Source of the DNA: Chitinophagaceae bacterium
GTDB taxonomy: Bacteria; Bacteroidota; Bacteroidia; Chitinophagales; Chitinophagaceae
NCBI GenBank assembly: GCA_020847395.1
Contig: JADLCD010000151.1
Span: forward strand, 1 to 53,740
DNA: 53,740 nt
Reading direction: 5' to 3'
This document shows positions 30,791-39,990 of the stretch, piece by piece. Positions within the stretch are counted from its first letter, which is position 1. Each line of letters starts with the position of its first letter. The translations under genes were made by a program, and so were the position numbers. The notes under the pieces are model-generated. The model ran no database searches and was not told the origin of the DNA. It saw nothing but the letters and a program-made list of their open reading frames with translations.

Positions 30791-30821
30791 TTTGTTTTTT
30801 TGCAGGTGAAATGTATATTCG
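30791..30821 (+). promoter_or_regulatory. ilv operon promoter
   Basis: TTTG at 30791-30794, exactly 19 bases, and TATATTCG at 30814-30821, one base from the TAnnTTTG consensus. Transcription should start near 30828, about 15 bases before the leader peptide start codon. Confidence 0.65.
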
Positions 30822-30842
30822 TGTATAATTACATTTCACTTT

Positions 30843-30941
30843 ATGTTGAAGCGCAGCATATCAAATATTGTCAGCAGCACAGTTCTTGTGGTGGTTGTCA
30901 TTATTATTCCTGCAATTCAGGGAGGTGTAATTTGTATATAA
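30843..30941 (+). CDS. ilvL: ilv leader peptide (attenuator)
   Basis: A 32-codon open frame, ATG 30843 to TAA 30939-30941, too short for usual gene calling. Its core reads VLVVVVIIIPAIQGG: four successive Val codons (30888-30899) and three Ile codons (30900-30908). Seventeen of 32 residues are Val, Ile or Leu. This is strikingly like the enterobacterial ilv leader, which also has a VVVIII-type run. It sits between an ilv promoter and a strong terminator hairpin ahead of ilvE, so ribosome stalling on scarce charged tRNA-Val/Ile would control read-through. Not homologous enough to claim descent; the arrangement is the evidence. Confidence 0.85.
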   Translation: MLKRSISNIVSSTVLVVVVIIIPAIQGGVICI

Positions 30942-30991
30942 AATAAATATTTAAAAATATATAAACCCGCCTCCTGAAGAGGCGGGTTTTT
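30920..30991 (+). terminator. Attenuator: terminator hairpin with competing antiterminator strand
   Basis: The terminator is an 11-bp perfect stem, AAACCCGCCTC (30963-30973) with GAGGCGGGTTT (30979-30989), five-base loop, then a T-rich tract. The competing strand GGGAGGTG (30920-30927), lying within the last leader codons, can pair with CGCCTCCT (30968-30975) over 8 bp including two G-U pairs. A ribosome stalled at the Val/Ile run leaves 30920-30927 free, so the antiterminator can form; a ribosome reaching the stop covers it and the terminator forms. The following ilvE starts 41 bases after the tract. Confidence 0.8.
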
Positions 30992-31032
30992 GTTTTGCAG
31001 AATAATAATTTCAACATTTTAAATCAAACACA

Positions 31033-31959
31033 ATGGCTTCTTATTACAATGATGCGACAGTAATTTTTTTGAATGGTTCTTTCGTAAAAGCCGCAGAGGC
31101 AAAAATGGATTTCTATAGCCAGTCGCTGCACTATGGTTATTCGGTTTTTGAAGGTATCCGTTCTTATAAAACCGAAAAAGGCGATACGAAAATATTTAAG
31201 CCCGTAGAACATTACGAGCGCCTGAAAAATTCTGCACGGGCAATAAACCTGCCTTATACGTGGAATACAGATGAATTGATTGCCGCTACATATGAAGTAT
31301 TGAAATGCAACAACATCCGGAACGCTTACATACGCCCCGTAGTATATGCTCCGGCAAATATGAGTTTTGTAGTGAATACGGAATCCTTCATTGTAATTGA
31401 AGCATGGGAAATGGCGCCATTTCTTGGAGATAAGTTGTTGCGGGTAATGACATCTTCTTTCCAACGCCCTAATCCAAAAGGCTTTAAGATAGAAGCAAAA
31501 GCTGCCGGCCACTATGTAAATTCCATTTTGGCCAGCCAGGAAGCAAAAGCAAAAGGGTTTGATGAAGCGCTTTTAACAGATATGAATGATAATATAGCGG
31601 AAGGCCCCGGAGCTAATGTGTTTTTTGAAAAAGAAGGGAAATTGGTTACGCCGCCTCCGGGAAATATTTTACCGGGCATTACCCGCGCAACGGTTTTTGA
31701 AATTTGTAAAAAGTTAGGAATAGAAGTAGAGGAAAAGTTGTTTAAGTCGGATGAATTAAAAAATGCTGATGCTGCTTTTTATTGTGGCACAGCCGCTGAA
31801 GTAATTGGTTGGGAAAGCCTGGATGATGTGAAGTTTAAAAAAGACTGGAATGAAACGGTGAGTAAAATAGTTCAGGCTGCATATGCGCATTTAATTATTG
31901 AAAAAGAATTTGTGCCGCCGGTACAAGGGGGTGTTAAAAGAAAGGAAATCATTGCATAG
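31033..31959 (+). CDS. ilvE: Branched-chain amino acid aminotransferase
   Basis: Fold-type IV PLP enzyme of 308 residues that makes valine, leucine and isoleucine from their keto acids with glutamate as donor. It has YGYSVFEGIRSY near residues 34-45, the PLP Lys156 in IEAKAAGHYVNS, the NIAEGPGANVFF loop and GILPGITRATV-like segment (NILPGITRATVFE). It is the first structural gene after the attenuator and is followed by ilvD after 39 bases, so it begins the attenuated operon. D-amino acid or aminodeoxychorismate enzymes of the same fold are unlikely in this context. Confidence 0.94.
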   Translation: MASYYNDATVIFLNGSFVKAAEAKMDFYSQSLHYGYSVFEGIRSYKTEKGDTKIFKPVEHYERLKNSARAINLPYTWNTDELIAATYEVLKCNNIRNAYIRPVVYAPANMSFVVNTESFIVIEAWEMAPFLGDKLLRVMTSSFQRPNPKGFKIEAKAAGHYVNSILASQEAKAKGFDEALLTDMNDNIAEGPGANVFFEKEGKLVTPPPGNILPGITRATVFEICKKLGIEVEEKLFKSDELKNADAAFYCGTAAEVIGWESLDDVKFKKDWNETVSKIVQAAYAHLIIEKEFVPPVQGGVKRKEIIA

Positions 31960-31998: not shown

Positions 31999-33678
31999 AT
32001 GACAGAATTAAATAAGTTCTCAAAAGTATTAACGCAAGACCAGACACAACCGGCAGCCCAGGCAATGCTATATGGTATTGGGTTAACGGATGACGACATG
32101 AATAAACCGCAGGTTGGTATAGCAAGTATGGGCTATGACGGTAATACCTGCAATATGCATTTAAACGACCTGGCAAAGGAAGTTAAGCATGGCGTATGGG
32201 ATAATGGTATGGTAGGATTGATTTTTAATACCATTGGCATCAGCGATGGTATTAGTAATGGTACAGACGGTATGCGTTATTCTTTAGTGAGCCGGGATTT
32301 GATTGCCGATAGTATAGAATCTGTTTGTGGCGGCTTTTATTATGATGGGTTGATCGCTATCCCTGGTTGTGATAAAAATATGCCCGGCTGTATAATGGCA
32401 ATGGGGCGTTTAAACCGACCTTCGATAATGGTATACGGTGGTACTATTGCGCCGGGGCATTATAAAGGACAGGAGTTGAACATCATTTCTGCGTTTGAAG
32501 CATTGGGGCAAAAAATCGCGGGCAAACTGGAAGAGGGGGATTTCAAAGAAATTGTAAAGCATTCCTGCCCGGGTGCAGGTGCATGCGGCGGTATGTATAC
32601 TGCTAATACGATGGCAAGCGCCATTGAAGCATTGGGTATGAGTTTGCCATATTCTTCAAGCAATCCTGCCATAAGCGATGATAAACGAAAGGAATGTCTT
32701 GATGCTGGTAAAGCCATAAAAGTTTTGCTTGAAAAAGATATTAAACCCAGGGATATCATGACGAAAAAAGCATTTGAAAATGCGATTGTAGTTATAATGA
32801 TATTAGGAGGAAGTACCAACGCTGTATTGCATCTTATTGCAATGGCAAAAAGCGTAGGCATTGAGTTAACGCAGGATGACTTCCAGGCGGTCAGCGATAA
32901 AACGCCGGTGCTGGCTGATTTTAAACCCAGCGGTAAATACCTCATGCAGGAGCTGCACTCACACGGAGGCATACCAGCAGTAATGAAATATTTATTGAAC
33001 AAAGGTTTATTGCATGGGGATTGCTTAACGGTTACCGGGAAAACCTTAGCCGAAAATCTTAAAGATATAACTGAGATAAGTTTTGAAACACAGGATATTC
33101 TTTACCCGTTAGAAAAACCTTTAAAAGCCACTGGTCATCTGCAAATACTATATGGCAACCTTGCCGAGAAAGGAAGCGTGGCGAAAATTTCCGGTAAAGA
33201 AGGTGAGCGTTTTGAAGGACCTGCAAGAGTATTTGATGGCGAGAAAAAATTGATTGAAGGCATATCATCCGGCAAAGTAAAGCCAGGCGATGTGGTAGTG
33301 ATTATTAATGAAGGCCCGAAAGGTGCGCCCGGCATGCCTGAAATGCTGAAACCTACCTCTGCTATTATTGGTGCGGGTTTAGGAAAATCGGTAGCATTAA
33401 TTACAGACGGACGTTTCAGCGGAGGAACACACGGATTTGTGGTAGGGCACATTACGCCTGAATCATACGAAGGTGGTTTAATTGGATTGGTGGAAGATGA
33501 TGATATTATTGAGTTGGATGCAATCAAAAACACCATCACTCTCAAAGTGTCTGATCAAGTAATTGCCGAAAGAAAAAAACGCTGGGCGAAACCGGAATTA
33601 AAAGTAAAAAGCGGTGTGTTGTATAAATATGCAAAATTGGTAAAGGATGCCAGTGAAGGTTGTGTGACCGATGAATAA
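31999..33678 (+). CDS. ilvD: Dihydroxy-acid dehydratase
   Basis: Iron-sulfur dehydratase of 559 residues, full length for IlvD, converting dihydroxy acids to the keto acid precursors of valine and isoleucine. Cluster and metal ligands are visible: Cys51 in [20 protein letters not shown], and [16 protein letters not shown]. The carboxy half has [18 protein letters not shown]. In the operon it should be followed directly by ilvB, but about 1.1 kb containing ORF6N genes and palindromes intervenes. Confidence 0.95.
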
Positions 33679-34209: not shown

Positions 34210-34782
34210 ATGCAATTACAGATCATACAAAATAAGATCTATGAAATACGTGGACTAAACGTAATGCTTGATTTTGACTTGGCTGTATTGTATAATGTAG
34301 AAACAAGAGTGTTTAACCAGGCGGTTAAAAGAAATATAGAGAGTTTTCCGGATGAGTTTATGTTTCGTTTAAGGGGAGATGAATGGAGCATGCTGATATC
34401 ACAACCCATTGTAAATCAAGGTATCCCATCATCACAATTTGTGATGATGGAAAATTTGCCCAAAAACAGAACCGGAAAATACCTACCCTATGCATTCACC
34501 GAGCACGGCGTAACCATGTTAGCCAGTGTGCTAAAAAGCCCGGTAGCGAGGAAAATGAACATCGCAATTATAAAAGCCTTTATCGCCATGCGAAAAACGC
34601 TGATACAATATGCGGAAGTGATAAAAGTGATAGGCGATTTAAAAGAACGAATGGATGGACATGATACACAATTGAACCAGATTTATGATGCACTGGAAAA
34701 TATGCTGGATAGAAAGGTAGCAGAAGAGAATAAGCAGAAAGAATGGAGCGAACGGGAACGGATTGGATTTAAAAGCAAATAA
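34210..34782 (+). CDS. ORF6N-domain protein
   Basis: Complete 190-residue ORF6N protein with the amino-terminal domain (residues ~1-60), a variable middle containing SSQFVMMENL, the conserved YLPYAFTEHGVTMLASVLKS, and a carboxy coiled coil (DLKERMDGHDTQLNQIYDAL). ORF6N/KilA-N proteins derive from phage and are presumed DNA binding; their role in bacteria is unclear. It sits inside the ilv operon on the coding strand, 30 bases ahead of ilvB, so it may be cotranscribed. The SQFV codons form the centre of a 25-base palindrome at 34426-34450. Confidence 0.85.
   Translation: MQLQIIQNKIYEIRGLNVMLDFDLAVLYNVETRVFNQAVKRNIESFPDEFMFRLRGDEWSMLISQPIVNQGIPSSQFVMMENLPKNRTGKYLPYAFTEHGVTMLASVLKSPVARKMNIAIIKAFIAMRKTLIQYAEVIKVIGDLKERMDGHDTQLNQIYDALENMLDRKVAEENKQKEWSERERIGFKSK
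34426..34450. repeat. 25-base palindrome inside the ORF6N gene
   Basis: CCATCATCACAA and its reverse complement flank a central T. The core TCACAATTTGTGA also occurs at 33744-33756 and 34137-34149, and nearly at 34083-34095, each time with different arms. Confidence 0.85.
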
Positions 34783-34812: not shown

Positions 34813-36588
34813 ATGAGTAGCGCAACTGAAACAATGAAAAAAGAAAAACCGGCGGGTAAAGAAACCGCAAAAGCTCCGCAAGGCAGAGTTAAACCACAAA
34901 CTTCCATAAGTGGAAGTGTGGCAGTGATGGAAGCATTGATTGCTGAAGGGGTCACGGATTTCTTTGGATATCCCGGTGGCGCAATTATGCCTATATACGA
35001 TGCACTATACGATTATATGGATACGCTCAATCATATACTCGTTCGCCACGAACAGGGAGGAATACACGCTGCCCAGGGCTATGCACGTACATCCGGTAAG
35101 GTGGGCGTGGTATTTGCTACCAGCGGACCCGGTGCAACAAACCTGGTAACGGGTTTAGCCGACGCGCAGATTGATAGTACACCGCTGGTTTGTATAACGG
35201 GCCAGGTATTTGCACACCTGCTCGGCACAGATGCCTTTCAGGAAACAGATGTGATTAATATTACCACACCTGTTACCAAATGGAATTTCCAGGTAACGGA
35301 AGCCAGTGAAATTCCGACTGCGCTGGCTAAAGCATTTTATATTGCTAAAACCGGCCGACCCGGACCTGTGTTGATTGATATTACCAAGAATGCGCAGGTA
35401 CAAAAATTCGATTATAAAGGATATACGCCATGCAATCATGTGCGCAGCTATCGTCCTAAGCCTATTGTGCGTAAAGAATATATTCAGGCTGCTGCTGAAT
35501 TAATTAACAAAGCAGAAAAACCATTTGTGCTTTTAGGGCAAGGGGTTATTTTAGGCAAAGCTGAAAAAGAATTTAAAACCTTTATTGAAAAAGCAGGTAT
35601 ACCTGCGGCATGGACAGTTTTAGGATTGAGCGCATTGGAAACAGATCACCCCTTAAATGTGGGAATGCTTGGGATGCACGGAAATTATGGCCCAAATGTT
35701 TTAACCAATGAATGTGATGTATTGATTGCTGTGGGTATGCGTTTTGATGATCGTGTAACCGGCAGGTTAGATAAATATGCCAAGCAGGCTAAGGTTATTC
35801 ATTTGGATATAGACCCTGCGGAAATAGATAAAAACGTGCAAACTACCGTGCCTGTTTGGGGCGATTGTAAAGAAACATTGCCCATGCTTACCGCGCTTGT
35901 TGAAAAGAAGGAGCATCCTGAGTGGTTAAATAAATTCAGGAAGATGCAGGTAGAGGAAGAGGATGTGGTGATTACAGATGAATTGCATCCCAAAGGCGAG
36001 ATAATGAGCATGGGAGAGGTATTGAATATATTAAACGAACTTACCAAAGGCGATGCTGTTATAGTAACGGATGTTGGTCAGCACCAGATGGTATCATGCC
36101 GCTATGCAAAATTTAATAAAACGAGGAGTAATGTAACTTCCGGAGGATTAGGCACCATGGGTTTTGCGTTGCCAGCAGCTATCGGCGCTAAGTTTGGCGC
36201 TAAAGACCGACAGGTGGTTGCTATTATTGGTGATGGCGGTTTCCAGATGACATTACAGGAACTCGGTACTATTATGCAGTTTGATGTTAACGTAAAAATC
36301 ATCATTCTTAATAACCAGTTTCTCGGCATGGTGCGCCAGTGGCAACAGTTATTCCACGATAAAAGATATTCTTTTGTAAACATTACCAGCCCTGATTTTG
36401 TAATGGTAGCCAAAGGTTACGGCATTGCAGGAAAAAGTATTTCAAAAAGAGAAGATTTAAAATCAGCCTTACAGGAAATGTTGAATCACAAAGGCTCATA
36501 TCTGCTTGAAGTGATGGTAGGTAAAGAAAACAATGTATTCCCAATGGTGCCGCAAGGTTGTGGCGTAGCGGAAATCAGGTTGAAATAA
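34813..36588 (+). CDS. ilvB: Acetolactate synthase large subunit
   Basis: Thiamine-diphosphate enzyme of 591 residues that condenses pyruvate with pyruvate or 2-oxobutyrate. It has the pyrimidine-domain FFGYPGGAIMPIYDAL and HEQGGIHAAQGYAR with the catalytic Glu, and the TPP/Mg motif GDGGFQMTLQELGTI with NNQFLGMVRQWQQLF. About 40 residues of Lys/Ala-rich extension precede the domain. The regulatory subunit gene ilvN follows. It lies 30 bases after the ORF6N insertion in the ilv operon. Confidence 0.96.
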   Translation: MSSATETMKKEKPAGKETAKAPQGRVKPQTSISGSVAVMEALIAEGVTDFFGYPGGAIMPIYDALYDYMDTLNHILVRHEQGGIHAAQGYARTSGKVGVVFATSGPGATNLVTGLADAQIDSTPLVCITGQVFAHLLGTDAFQETDVINITTPVTKWNFQVTEASEIPTALAKAFYIAKTGRPGPVLIDITKNAQVQKFDYKGYTPCNHVRSYRPKPIVRKEYIQAAAELINKAEKPFVLLGQGVILGKAEKEFKTFIEKAGIPAAWTVLGLSALETDHPLNVGMLGMHGNYGPNVLTNECDVLIAVGMRFDDRVTGRLDKYAKQAKVIHLDIDPAEIDKNVQTTVPVWGDCKETLPMLTALVEKKEHPEWLNKFRKMQVEEEDVVITDELHPKGEIMSMGEVLNILNELTKGDAVIVTDVGQHQMVSCRYAKFNKTRSNVTSGGLGTMGFALPAAIGAKFGAKDRQVVAIIGDGGFQMTLQELGTIMQFDVNVKIIILNNQFLGMVRQWQQLFHDKRYSFVNITSPDFVMVAKGYGIAGKSISKREDLKSALQEMLNHKGSYLLEVMVGKENNVFPMVPQGCGVAEIRLK

Positions 36589-36673: not shown

Positions 36674-36741
36674 ATAAAAATATGTGCTTTGCAGTTGTTG
36701 GCGGAATAAAAATAAAAATATCAAACCAAGTAATTAAAGCA

Positions 36742-37329
36742 ATGAAACACGAATTTACCATAACAGTGTATACTGAAAACCATATTGGTTTACTTAATCG
36801 CATCGCGATTATATTCTCTCGGCGAAAAATAAATATTGAGAGTTTAAATACTTCCCCTTCTGAAGTGGAAGGCATACATCGTTTTACTATTGTGATTAAT
36901 GAAGTAGAAGATGTGGTGAAGAAATTAGTACGCCAGATAGAAAAACAGGTGGAAGTATTGAAGGCATATTATAACAGTAATGATGAAATTGTTTGGCAGG
37001 AATTGGCATTATACAAAGTGTCGACAGATAAAGTAATAACGGATGTTAAGGTAGAACGTTTGTTGCGCCAGTATGGGGCAAGGGCTGTAGTGATTCGTAA
37101 AGATTATACGGTGTTTGAAACATCGGGACACAGAGAAGAAATTGACAAGCTTACGGAAGTATTAGGTCCATTGGGTTTAATAGAATTTGTAAGAAGCGCG
37201 AGAGTGGCTATCATCAATGCGAGCAATGGCTTTTACGAAAAGCTGAAAGAATTTGAAGAAGAAAAACCCGGCGATGAAATTGTAGAAAATGAATTTTTAG
37301 ATAAACAGGACGAGGTGTTTTCGATGTAG
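36742..37329 (+). CDS. ilvN: Acetolactate synthase small (regulatory) subunit
   Basis: Protein of about 195 residues. The first ~80 form an ACT domain (EFTITVYTENHIGLLNRIA, with NIESLNTSPSEVEGI), followed by the carboxy-terminal ALS domain and an acidic tail ending DEVFSM. It binds the large subunit and confers valine feedback. The start at 36742 (MKHEFTITVY) is preferred over 36682, because the 20 residues added by the earlier start are unlike the family. ilvC follows after 162 bases. Confidence 0.93.
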   Translation: MKHEFTITVYTENHIGLLNRIAIIFSRRKINIESLNTSPSEVEGIHRFTIVINEVEDVVKKLVRQIEKQVEVLKAYYNSNDEIVWQELALYKVSTDKVITDVKVERLLRQYGARAVVIRKDYTVFETSGHREEIDKLTEVLGPLGLIEFVRSARVAIINASNGFYEKLKEFEEEKPGDEIVENEFLDKQDEVFSM

Positions 37330-37384: not shown

Positions 37385-37491
37385 CCTGAAACTTTAAACC
37401 TGCAATAAGTTTACAGGATACATTACTTTTGCAGCCCAAAATAAAAAACAATTTTCCAATTTTCAACATATCAAATTTTCAAACTAACAAC

Positions 37492-38541
37492 ATGGCAAAA
37501 TTAAATTTCGGCGGCGTTGAGGAAAACGTAGTAACACGTGACGAATTCCCGTTAAGCAAAGCCCAGGAAGTATTAAAGAACGAAACGATTGCAGTTATAG
37601 GATACGGCGTTCAGGGACCCGGACAGGCGTTGAACCAGAGAGATAACGGTATTAATGTAATAGTTGGTCAGCGTAAAAATTCAAAAACCTGGGATAAAGC
37701 TGTGAAAGATGGTTTTGTTCCTGGTGAAACTTTGTTTGAGATTGAAGAAGCATTGCAGAAAGGCACTATTATCTGCTACCTGCTAAGCGATGCGGCACAA
37801 ATTGAATTGTGGCCTACCGTTAAAAAACATCTTACTGCAGGTAAAGCATTGTATTTCTCTCATGGCTTTGGTATTACGTTTAACGAGCAAACCGGTATTG
37901 TTCCTCCAAAAGATGTGGACGTATTTTTGGTTGCACCAAAAGGTTCCGGTACATCATTGCGTCGCATGTTTTTACAAGGCCGCGGCTTAAACAGCAGCTA
38001 TGCTATTTTTCAGGATGCTACCGGTAAAGCAAAAGATCGTGTAATTGCGTTGGGTATCGCAGTGGGCAGCGGTTATCTTTTTGAAACCAATTTCAAGAAA
38101 GAAGTATATAGCGATTTAACCGGCGAACGTGGTACGCTTATGGGTGCCATCCAGGGTATTTTCGCTGCACAATACCAGGTATTGCGCGATAAAGGACATT
38201 CTCCTTCAGAAGCATTTAATGAAACTGTTGAAGAGTTGACACAATCGTTAATGCCGCTCGTTGCCGAAAATGGTATGGACTGGATGTATGCCAACTGTTC
38301 CACAACCGCTCAGCGTGGCGCATTGGACTGGTGGAAAAAATTCCGTGATGCCACTGCTCCTGTGTTCAAAGAATTATATGAAAGCGTAGCAACCGGTAAA
38401 GAATCTCAGCGTTCTATCGACAGCAACAGTAAAGCCGATTACCGCGAGAAGCTGGAAGGCGAATTAAAAGAATTGCGCGACAGTGAAATGTGGCAGGCTG
38501 GTAAAACAGTGAGAAGTTTGAGACCTGAGAATCAGAAATAG
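37492..38541 (+). CDS. ilvC: Ketol-acid reductoisomerase
   Basis: Enzyme of 349 residues, in the size class of the short (class I) reductoisomerases. The amino Rossmann domain has IAVIGYGVQGPGQALNQRD and the cofactor loop VGQRKNSKTW, whose basic residues suggest NADPH. LYFSHGFGITF and the Mg-binding DLTGERGTLMGAIQGIF follow. It isomerises and reduces acetolactate or acetohydroxybutyrate. ATG 37492 (MAKLNFGGVEENV) is preferred; the earlier in-frame start at 37429 adds 21 unlike residues. Confidence 0.94.
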   Translation: MAKLNFGGVEENVVTRDEFPLSKAQEVLKNETIAVIGYGVQGPGQALNQRDNGINVIVGQRKNSKTWDKAVKDGFVPGETLFEIEEALQKGTIICYLLSDAAQIELWPTVKKHLTAGKALYFSHGFGITFNEQTGIVPPKDVDVFLVAPKGSGTSLRRMFLQGRGLNSSYAIFQDATGKAKDRVIALGIAVGSGYLFETNFKKEVYSDLTGERGTLMGAIQGIFAAQYQVLRDKGHSPSEAFNETVEELTQSLMPLVAENGMDWMYANCSTTAQRGALDWWKKFRDATAPVFKELYESVATGKESQRSIDSNSKADYREKLEGELKELRDSEMWQAGKTVRSLRPENQK

Positions 38542-38703: not shown

Positions 38704-39990
38704 ATGAAAGACGAAAACAAAAACGAAACGATAAAGCAAAGCCTTCCCGCCTGGTCGGGGAGGCTTAACTTTCATGACGCGGTCTATCGCCTGAAAAAGA
38801 TCGTGAACCGTACGCCTTTAATGTACAACCAAAACCTTTCGCGCAGGTATGGCTGCGAAGTGTATCTTAAAAGAGAAGACCTTCAAATAGCGCGTTCCTA
38901 CAAATTACGTGGTGCGTATAATATGATCTCCAGTCTTAATGCAGATCAAAAAAAACAGGGTGTGGTTTGTGCCAGCGCCGGAAATCACGCGCAGGGATTT
39001 GCCTATAGTTGTAAAAAATTGGGCATCAAAGGAGTGATATTTATGCCTGTGATCACGCCACGGCAAAAAATTAACCAGACAAAAATGTTTGGTGAAGACT
39101 TTATTGAAATAAAACTGGTGGGAGATACATTTGATGATTGTGCCGCTGCCGCAAAATCATTTACGGTTGAACACAATATGGTTTTTATTCCTCCCTTTGA
39201 TGATTATAGTATAATAGAAGGGCAGGGAACCGTAGCGGTGGAAATACTGGAAGACGCTTCTGATATTGATTATGTTTTTATTCCCATAGGTGGTGGCGGG
39301 CTGTGTGCGGGCATCGGCGCTTATTTTAAAACTTTCAGCCCAAATACAAAAATAATGGGCGTTGAACCCGCTGGTGCTCCTTCAATGAAAGCCGCGCTTG
39401 ATGCCGGGCATCCTGTTACGCTTAATGAAATTGACCGTTTTGTGGATGGTGCAGCAGTAAAACGTGTAGGCGATATTACCTACGAAATTTGCAGTAAAGT
39501 TTTGGATGATATCATACTTGTTCCTGAAGGAAGAATTTGTACCACTATCTTAAGATTATATAATGAAGATGCCATAGTGGTTGAACCTGCCGGCGCGCTA
39601 TCTATAGCTGCGCTGGAGCAATGTGCGGAAGAAATTAAAGGCAAAAAAGTAGTGTGTATTGTTAGTGGTGGTAATAATGATATTGACAGGATGCCGGAAA
39701 TAAAAGAAAAGTCGCTGCAATTTGAAGGACTGAAACATTACTTTCTCATCAACTTTGCACAGCGCCCCGGTGCCTTAAAAGAATTTGTAAATAATGTTTT
39801 AGGACCTGACGACGACATTACCAGGTTCGAATTTATGCAGAAAACTAACAAAGAAGCTGGCCCCGCACTGGTGGGCATAGAGCTTCAAAACAGAAATGAT
39901 TATATCAGGTTGATTGAAAATATGAAGCAATACCAGGTTAATTTTTCTGAAATAAATAAAGACAACCAGTTGCTTGCATACCTGGTATAA
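38704..39990 (+). CDS. ilvA: Threonine ammonia-lyase (threonine dehydratase)
   Basis: PLP enzyme of 428 residues that makes 2-oxobutyrate for isoleucine. The catalytic Lys67 lies in REDLQIARSYKLRGAYN, phosphate binding in IGGGGLCAG, and the NHAQGFAYSC segment is standard. One ACT-like regulatory domain follows from residue ~340 (HYFLINFAQRPGALKEFVNN), whereas the E. coli biosynthetic enzyme has two, so the feedback response may differ. It is the last gene of the ilv operon. Confidence 0.94.
   Translation: MKDENKNETIKQSLPAWSGRLNFHDAVYRLKKIVNRTPLMYNQNLSRRYGCEVYLKREDLQIARSYKLRGAYNMISSLNADQKKQGVVCASAGNHAQGFAYSCKKLGIKGVIFMPVITPRQKINQTKMFGEDFIEIKLVGDTFDDCAAAAKSFTVEHNMVFIPPFDDYSIIEGQGTVAVEILEDASDIDYVFIPIGGGGLCAGIGAYFKTFSPNTKIMGVEPAGAPSMKAALDAGHPVTLNEIDRFVDGAAVKRVGDITYEICSKVLDDIILVPEGRICTTILRLYNEDAIVVEPAGALSIAALEQCAEEIKGKKVVCIVSGGNNDIDRMPEIKEKSLQFEGLKHYFLINFAQRPGALKEFVNNVLGPDDDITRFEFMQKTNKEAGPALVGIELQNRNDYIRLIENMKQYQVNFSEINKDNQLLAYLV

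Follow-up and report, generated by a model that had tools for sequence, protein, structure and literature searches.

Upstream of ilvE, a Chitinophagaceae bacterium of the phylum Bacteroidota carries a short leader region that we read as controlling the ilv operon by ribosome-mediated transcription attenuation, and we put the probability of this reading at roughly 0.9. The region lies in a window of 53,740 nucleotides (contig JADLCD010000151.1, assembly GCA_020847395.1), where it is followed on the forward strand by ilvE, the first gene of the putatively controlled operon (31033-31959), ilvD (31999-33678), ilvB for the large subunit of acetolactate synthase (34813-36588), ilvN for its small subunit (36682-37329), ilvC (37429-38541) and ilvA for threonine ammonia-lyase (38704-39990). 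NCBIfam matches confirm this order, which a first-pass annotation of the window had proposed, and place leuA and leuB upstream of the leader region. The same annotation had suggested attenuation, a reading that now finds support, at the level of sequence and modelling, in the anatomy of the region, its conservation, partner-swap tests, a model of ribosome masking and a control amino acid that matches the operon. The leader is widely conserved and new; its type of mechanism is already known and has a precedent within the phylum. The IlvE protein of the window shows 93% identity to its closest named relatives, from a Chitinophagaceae MAG and Terrimonas sp. NS-102, and the window probably belongs to this group. 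Between ilvD and ilvB lies a gene for an ORF6N-domain protein of 190 amino acids (34210-34782; PF10543, E 5.8e-29), apparently inserted there at a later stage.

All parts of the leader region can be read on the forward strand. A -33-like promoter element TTTG (30791-30794, within AGTTCTTTG) is separated by 19 nt from a predicted -7-like element TATATTCG (30814-30821), and an inverted repeat lies over this promoter, with its left arm GTGAAATGTA at 30806-30815 and its right arm TACATTTCAC at 30830-30839, in the expected 5' UTR of an estimated 8-15 nt or so. The leader peptide gene runs from the ATG at 30843 to the TAA at 30941 and encodes MLKRSISNIVSSTVLVVVVIIIPAIQGGVICI in 32 codons. Its control codons (30888-30908, GTG GTG GTT GTC ATT ATT ATT) specify four Val and then three Ile, with Leu before them, and in relatives too an Ile/Val run occupies this position. 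The final part of the leader frame also forms the antiterminator strand (strand A, 30919-30931), assigned from sequence, pairing tests and the masking model, whose GGAGG begins 12 nt past the last Ile codon; the right arm of the promoter repeat is able to pair with it as well. Its target, strand 3 (about 30963-30975, from sequence and pairing tests), consists of the 5' arm of the terminator and the first bases of its loop. The intrinsic terminator hairpin with its T-rich tail (30963-30996), at which termination is predicted, is recognised from sequence and conservation; the hairpin itself (30963-30989) reads AAACCCGCCTC-CTGAA-GAGGCGGGTTT, with 11 bp, and is followed by TTGTTTT. Between GGGAGGTG (30920-30927) and CGCCTCCT (30968-30975) 8 bp are possible, two of them G-U. 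The first-pass annotation had already picked out the promoter, the 32-codon frame with its Val4-Ile3 run, the 11-bp terminator and the 8-bp pairing, and each of these is borne out by the sequence; the promoter repeat, a pairing of the 5' end with strand A and the ORF6N-domain gene come in addition to what it listed.

The following order of events would account for these parts. We infer that a short transcript begins near 30828 and that the leader is translated while the RNA is being made. With charged Val- and Ile-tRNA plentiful, the ribosome would pass the Val and Ile codons and cover strand A, so that strand 3 and strand 4 would form the terminator and transcription would end near 30991. With charged tRNA scarce, the ribosome would stall within 30888-30908, its leading edge just short of strand A; strand A would then be free to take strand 3 and block the terminator, and RNA polymerase would continue into ilvE-D-B-N-C-A.

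Within the window, runs of at least seven consecutive Ile/Val codons occur once in the three forward frames and never in the reverse frames, and 20 dinucleotide shuffles of the window contained no such run in their forward frames; conservation in 39 of 42 orthologous loci is the stronger argument against chance. Folding of the leader region, which the first-pass annotation had recommended, predicts a stable structure: the fold of 30828-30995 is more stable than all of 200 shuffles (z -4.75), and in it the 5' end (30828-30837) pairs with 30919-30931 while the terminator is kept.

An IlvE protein search (E 1e-80) of 117 genomes of the family yielded an orthologue in 43, and 42 loci were analysed. 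Left out were the ilvE match of G044, which begins at contig base 2, in a genome that does match the covariance model described below, and L002-L004, the IlvE paralogues of the window's own genome (23-30% identity). A promoter, a leader of 27-38 residues with a branched-chain codon run, and a terminator are present at 39 of the 42 loci (with the leader starts of L007, L017, L018 and L023 manually placed at an internal ATG), and the comparison of related Chitinophagaceae spacers that had been proposed thus upholds the leader frame, the Ile/Val run and the terminator. Throughout these 39 loci the -7 box is preceded by AGTTCTTT or a sequence very like it, and a TATATTYG-like box is found 14-21 nt upstream of the leader start in 37, with distances of 30 and 33 nt in the other two. 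The unit is absent at three ilvE loci: in L028 and L029 ilvE follows, as judged by eye, directly after a leuB-like end, and the L042 genome has the unit elsewhere, followed by a small ORF for which NCBIfam gave no match at 1e-10. A second set of 45 ilvE loci came from named genomes, 43 of them with enough upstream sequence. A leader-terminator pair was found by script in 30; of the remaining 13, visual inspection revealed a leader and hairpin in seven (L111, L126, L128, L142, L145, L150, L151), and in six ilvE sits straight behind the preceding gene.

A covariance model built from the 39 leader sequences matches 67 of the 117 family genomes at E 0.001; IlvD is encoded in 84 and, by hand cross-tabulation, both occur in 65, which leaves 19 IlvD-bearing genomes with no model match at that threshold. 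Seventeen further stretches from genomes with IlvD only held no comparable Ile/Val leader with a terminator (the pairs in L153 and L169 were spurious); leuA or leuB lies upstream of ilvD in 11 of them. At E 0.01 the model matches 60 of 248 genomes of the order and 27 of 296 of the phylum, samples that overlap the family. By eye, 18 of the 24 phylum-search loci (L084-L107) are Ile/Val leaders upstream of ilv genes and three (L092, L098, L104) show no leader. A His leader precedes hisG in L089, an Ile/Thr leader precedes an aspartokinase gene in L090, and a Phe/Tyr leader precedes pheA in L103, from the same family as the window; gene names were checked for these three and for L085. In the window's own genome the model finds no further strong copy beyond the window site. 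Five of 13 weaker matches (E up to 10) were inspected away from that site, L048 and L050-L052 by eye and with no matching leader, and none of the five was convincing.

Spacing and pairing potential are conserved together with the parts. Of the 34 loci with GGAGG, 30 have the motif 12 nt past the last run codon and the remainder have it at 9, 9, 11 and 15 nt; five of the 39 loci have a strand other than GGAGG. In swap tests over the 39 loci, uncorrected for shared ancestry, the own partner was better than all 2000 swaps for strand A with strand 3, for the 5' UTR with strand A, and for the promoter spacer with the 5' UTR. For distant loci, the own strand A:strand 3 energy is -12.75 versus -8.87 for swapped partners, and none of 5000 swaps was as low; this comparison covers the 18 of 21 chosen loci with a usable segment, includes an L088 segment from the wrong frame and is likewise uncorrected for ancestry. 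Two genomes of one genus display a compensatory change, CTGTGAGA/TCTCACAG in L095 and GTGTGAGA/TCTCACAC in L102. As to the covarying stems that the first-pass annotation had asked about, the terminator provides them (98.5% of cells paired, four pairs changed on both sides) and the antiterminator does so modestly. Its pairs are standard in 91.3% of cells and in 52-65% if slid by 1-3 columns; two pairs changed on both sides, a number equalled by 76 of 500 shuffles and a score equalled by 6 of 500, formal covariation being modest because the antiterminator is mostly invariant in the family. The terminator loop starts with C in 37 of 39 loci, a base that strand A needs and the hairpin can dispense with. 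The terminator exceeds the strand A:strand 3 duplex in stability, both in the window (-19.0 versus -15.4) and in the medians over loci (-19.1 versus -16.7), so that the choice between them must be kinetic.

A masking model was applied to transcripts ending before the 3' arm of the terminator; the ribosome was assumed to cover positions -15 to +11 relative to the A-site codon. Over the 39 loci, it expects 9.0-9.6 strand A:strand 3 pairs as long as the ribosome occupies one of the last nine run codons, 9.2, 6.0, 2.8 and 0.95 pairs at the first to fourth codon past the run, and 0.2 once it has reached the stop; the window alone gives 11.3-12.6 pairs within the run and 2.0 at the stop codon. The modelled geometry fits a stalled ribosome that would spare strand A and an advanced one that would cover it. 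The simple scheme of the first-pass annotation is upheld in this respect, but it left unaddressed that the antiterminator is predicted in untranslated RNA as well: ribosome-free RNA is expected to form 9.53 strand A:strand 3 pairs, so that an untranslated transcript might read through, while the whole-leader fold instead keeps the terminator. In trp-type attenuators, a protector (1:2) hairpin makes untranslated RNA terminate. A similar role for the pairing of the 5' UTR with strand A would agree with the swap test, in which this pairing beat 2000 of 2000 swaps, but the model of truncated RNA favours strand A with strand 3 when no ribosome is present.

That free RNA can adopt either fold would also suit a protein or small molecule that selects the fold, as in a riboswitch, a T-box or an RNA-binding protein, and the promoter repeat, whose arms fit each other better than swapped arms in 2000 of 2000 swaps, would suit a DNA-binding repressor; we consider such control highly improbable. 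Rfam 15 gave no match at gathering score in the window or in the loci of 12 relatives, which speaks against a riboswitch or T-box, and the leader frame, the run and the exact 12-nt spacing make sense through translation. The repeat is strong (score at least 7.5) in just 11 of the 39 loci, and among these its arm spacing varies from 3 to 15 nt, unlike a fixed operator, for which reason a fixed DNA operator was rejected as the main explanation of the repeat. A known Rfam element was likewise rejected, on the Rfam 15 result and on the absence of the Bacteroid-trp RNA (RF01692) from 38 relatives including the window's own genome, the control Bacteroides ihuae being matched. As there was no Rfam 15 match where this was tested, the element could become an Rfam family and help to annotate amino-acid operons.

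The attenuation reading is further favored by a control amino acid that switches with the operon: His at hisG, Phe/Tyr at pheA and Thr/Ile at thrA. In the window's own genome, a His-rich leader MIYTIHHHHHFLPKG with a terminator lies upstream of hisG (L192), and a Phe/Tyr-rich leader MKISKAYRFFYFYFYFTGRPGLLLLKK lies upstream of pheA (L199) together with a hairpin found by eye, AATCCCGGC-AAAA-GCCGGGATT; both have matching strand A:strand 3 duplexes. Upstream of thrA (L247) there is a Thr/Ile-rich leader MVFSKRYYLSSSAISAAVDTIITTTTTTLS, which includes DTIITTTTTTLS, with no terminator detected. In relatives, a His-run leader lies upstream at 22 of 23 hisG loci, 16 of them with a terminator paired by script, and Phe/Tyr leaders precede 18 of 21 pheA loci; Thr/Ile leaders precede 15 of 19 thrA loci (L247, L250-L258, L260, L261, L264-L266), and an intrinsic terminator was found in none of the 19.

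Codon choice in the run is distinctive. Among the last nine run codons of the 39 loci, ATT accounts for 163 of 179 Ile codons; in their preceding codons these leaders use it for 24 of 92, and 13 genes of the window use it for 236 of 452. Val is GTC in 41 of 140 run codons versus 6 of 451 in those genes; the genes compared are from the window's genome alone and the leaders from 39 loci. The run codons thus favour ATT for Ile and GTG or GTC for Val, a bias that gene usage in the window does not explain. The hydrophobic LVVVVIIIP run, in a frame bounded by promoter, start codon and terminator, might be taken to indicate a small, hydrophobic protein of the membrane that has a terminator of its own and no bearing on ilv control. 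This, too, is highly improbable: the run is almost purely Ile and Val with biased codons, the last codons are at the same time complementary to the terminator and fit their own partner best, the unit stays with the ilv genes, and leaders of the same layout rich in His and in Phe/Tyr stand upstream of hisG and pheA of the same genome. Equally implausible is that the hairpin merely ends or processes transcripts in the leuB-ilvE interval and that the leader is a remnant, a view to which the end of leuB, 55 nt from the -7 box, lends some colour in that leu transcripts may enter the leader. The promoter sits between leuB and the hairpin, the whole unit, its spacing and its codon choice are kept across the family, and G004 has the unit away from ilvE, although the small ORF behind it has no NCBIfam match.

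In enterobacteria, ilvGMEDA and ilvB are preceded by leader-peptide attenuators with a Val/Ile(/Leu) run and an overlapping antiterminator and terminator. The leader described here shares with them the Val/Ile run, the overlapping alternative structures and the ilv biosynthetic genes downstream; it differs in its Bacteroidia host, its 5' UTR of about 8-15 nt and the position of strand A inside the end of the leader frame, and no sequence match is claimed. The ilvBNC attenuator of Corynebacterium, likened here by description alone, shares an ilv operon, a leader frame and alternative hairpins and belongs to another phylum (PMC11857589; PMC10272879). The first-pass annotation, which assigned such attenuation mainly to proteobacteria and actinobacteria, was incomplete with respect to Bacteroidota. 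For Flavobacterium psychrophilum, strong clues for leader-peptide attenuation of amino-acid operons were presented in 2021, including 5' elements upstream of pheA and hisG that are kept in other Flavobacteriaceae genera and have no Rfam hits (PMC9723704). That species belongs to a different family and shares with the present case the phylum, the proposed mechanism and the kind of operon, and no word beginning with "ilv" occurs in the main text of that paper (PMC9723704). Bacteroid-trp, tabulated among Bacteroidota RNAs (PMC2864571), is, like the ilv leader, a cis-regulatory RNA of the phylum and is listed for trp genes. Leader-like short frames are also mentioned for Bacteroides thetaiotaomicron (PMC7366714). 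In view of the F. psychrophilum and Bacteroid-trp precedents, the ilv leader is new but of a known type; a search of open-licence PubMed Central found no paper on ilv leader-peptide attenuation in Bacteroidetes or Chitinophaga. Such switches have been little studied in Bacteroidota, and the present material adds a family-wide set of putative ilv attenuators, and the his, phe and thr leaders of one genome, from a phylum without Shine-Dalgarno pairing, the ribosomes of Bacteroidia being described as failing to recognise Shine-Dalgarno sequences (PMC9976891). If the leaders are read correctly, the leading ribosome must stay close to RNA polymerase in these bacteria.

The promoter spacer in relatives is often GGCGGGTG (GGCGGG in 13 of 39, e.g., L008, L013, L031 and L040). 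It is complementary to the 5' arm of the terminator, although it lies outside the transcript of the ilv promoter; its pairing with strand 3 is weak in the window (-6.8), while the mean of the 39 loci is -11.8, with swaps as low in 13 of 3000. One might speculate, though we think it unlikely, that the promoter adds a second layer, in which the spacer within transcripts reading in from leuAB would hide the leader start and alter or lift attenuation. Addition of the upstream sequence lowers the accessibility of the start site from 0.70 to 0.36, compared with 0.44 for dinucleotide-shuffled sequence and 0.39 for the upstream sequence of other loci; the real sequence lowers it more than the shuffled one in 27 of 39 loci (p 0.0007) and more than the swapped one in 23 of 39 (p 0.08). 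Exemption of leu transcripts was rejected as a main claim, since the shuffled and swapped controls are close and the antiterminator is expected to lose pairs, down to 5.8, rather than gain them. Were the second layer real, one leader would handle two classes of transcript differently, and sister families would extend the same logic by two leader-terminator units in series.

The series units and the complementarity of the promoter spacer are the parts that most deserve specialist attention. Two complete leader-terminator units in series were found upstream of ilv genes in six genomes (L088, L093, L095, L096/L107, L099, L102); they belong to other Bacteroidota families, and the second leader begins just past the first terminator. 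The pheA locus of G006 (L211) carries a pair of Phe/Tyr-rich leaders with a terminator-like hairpin behind each, which may be a series arrangement inside the family itself.
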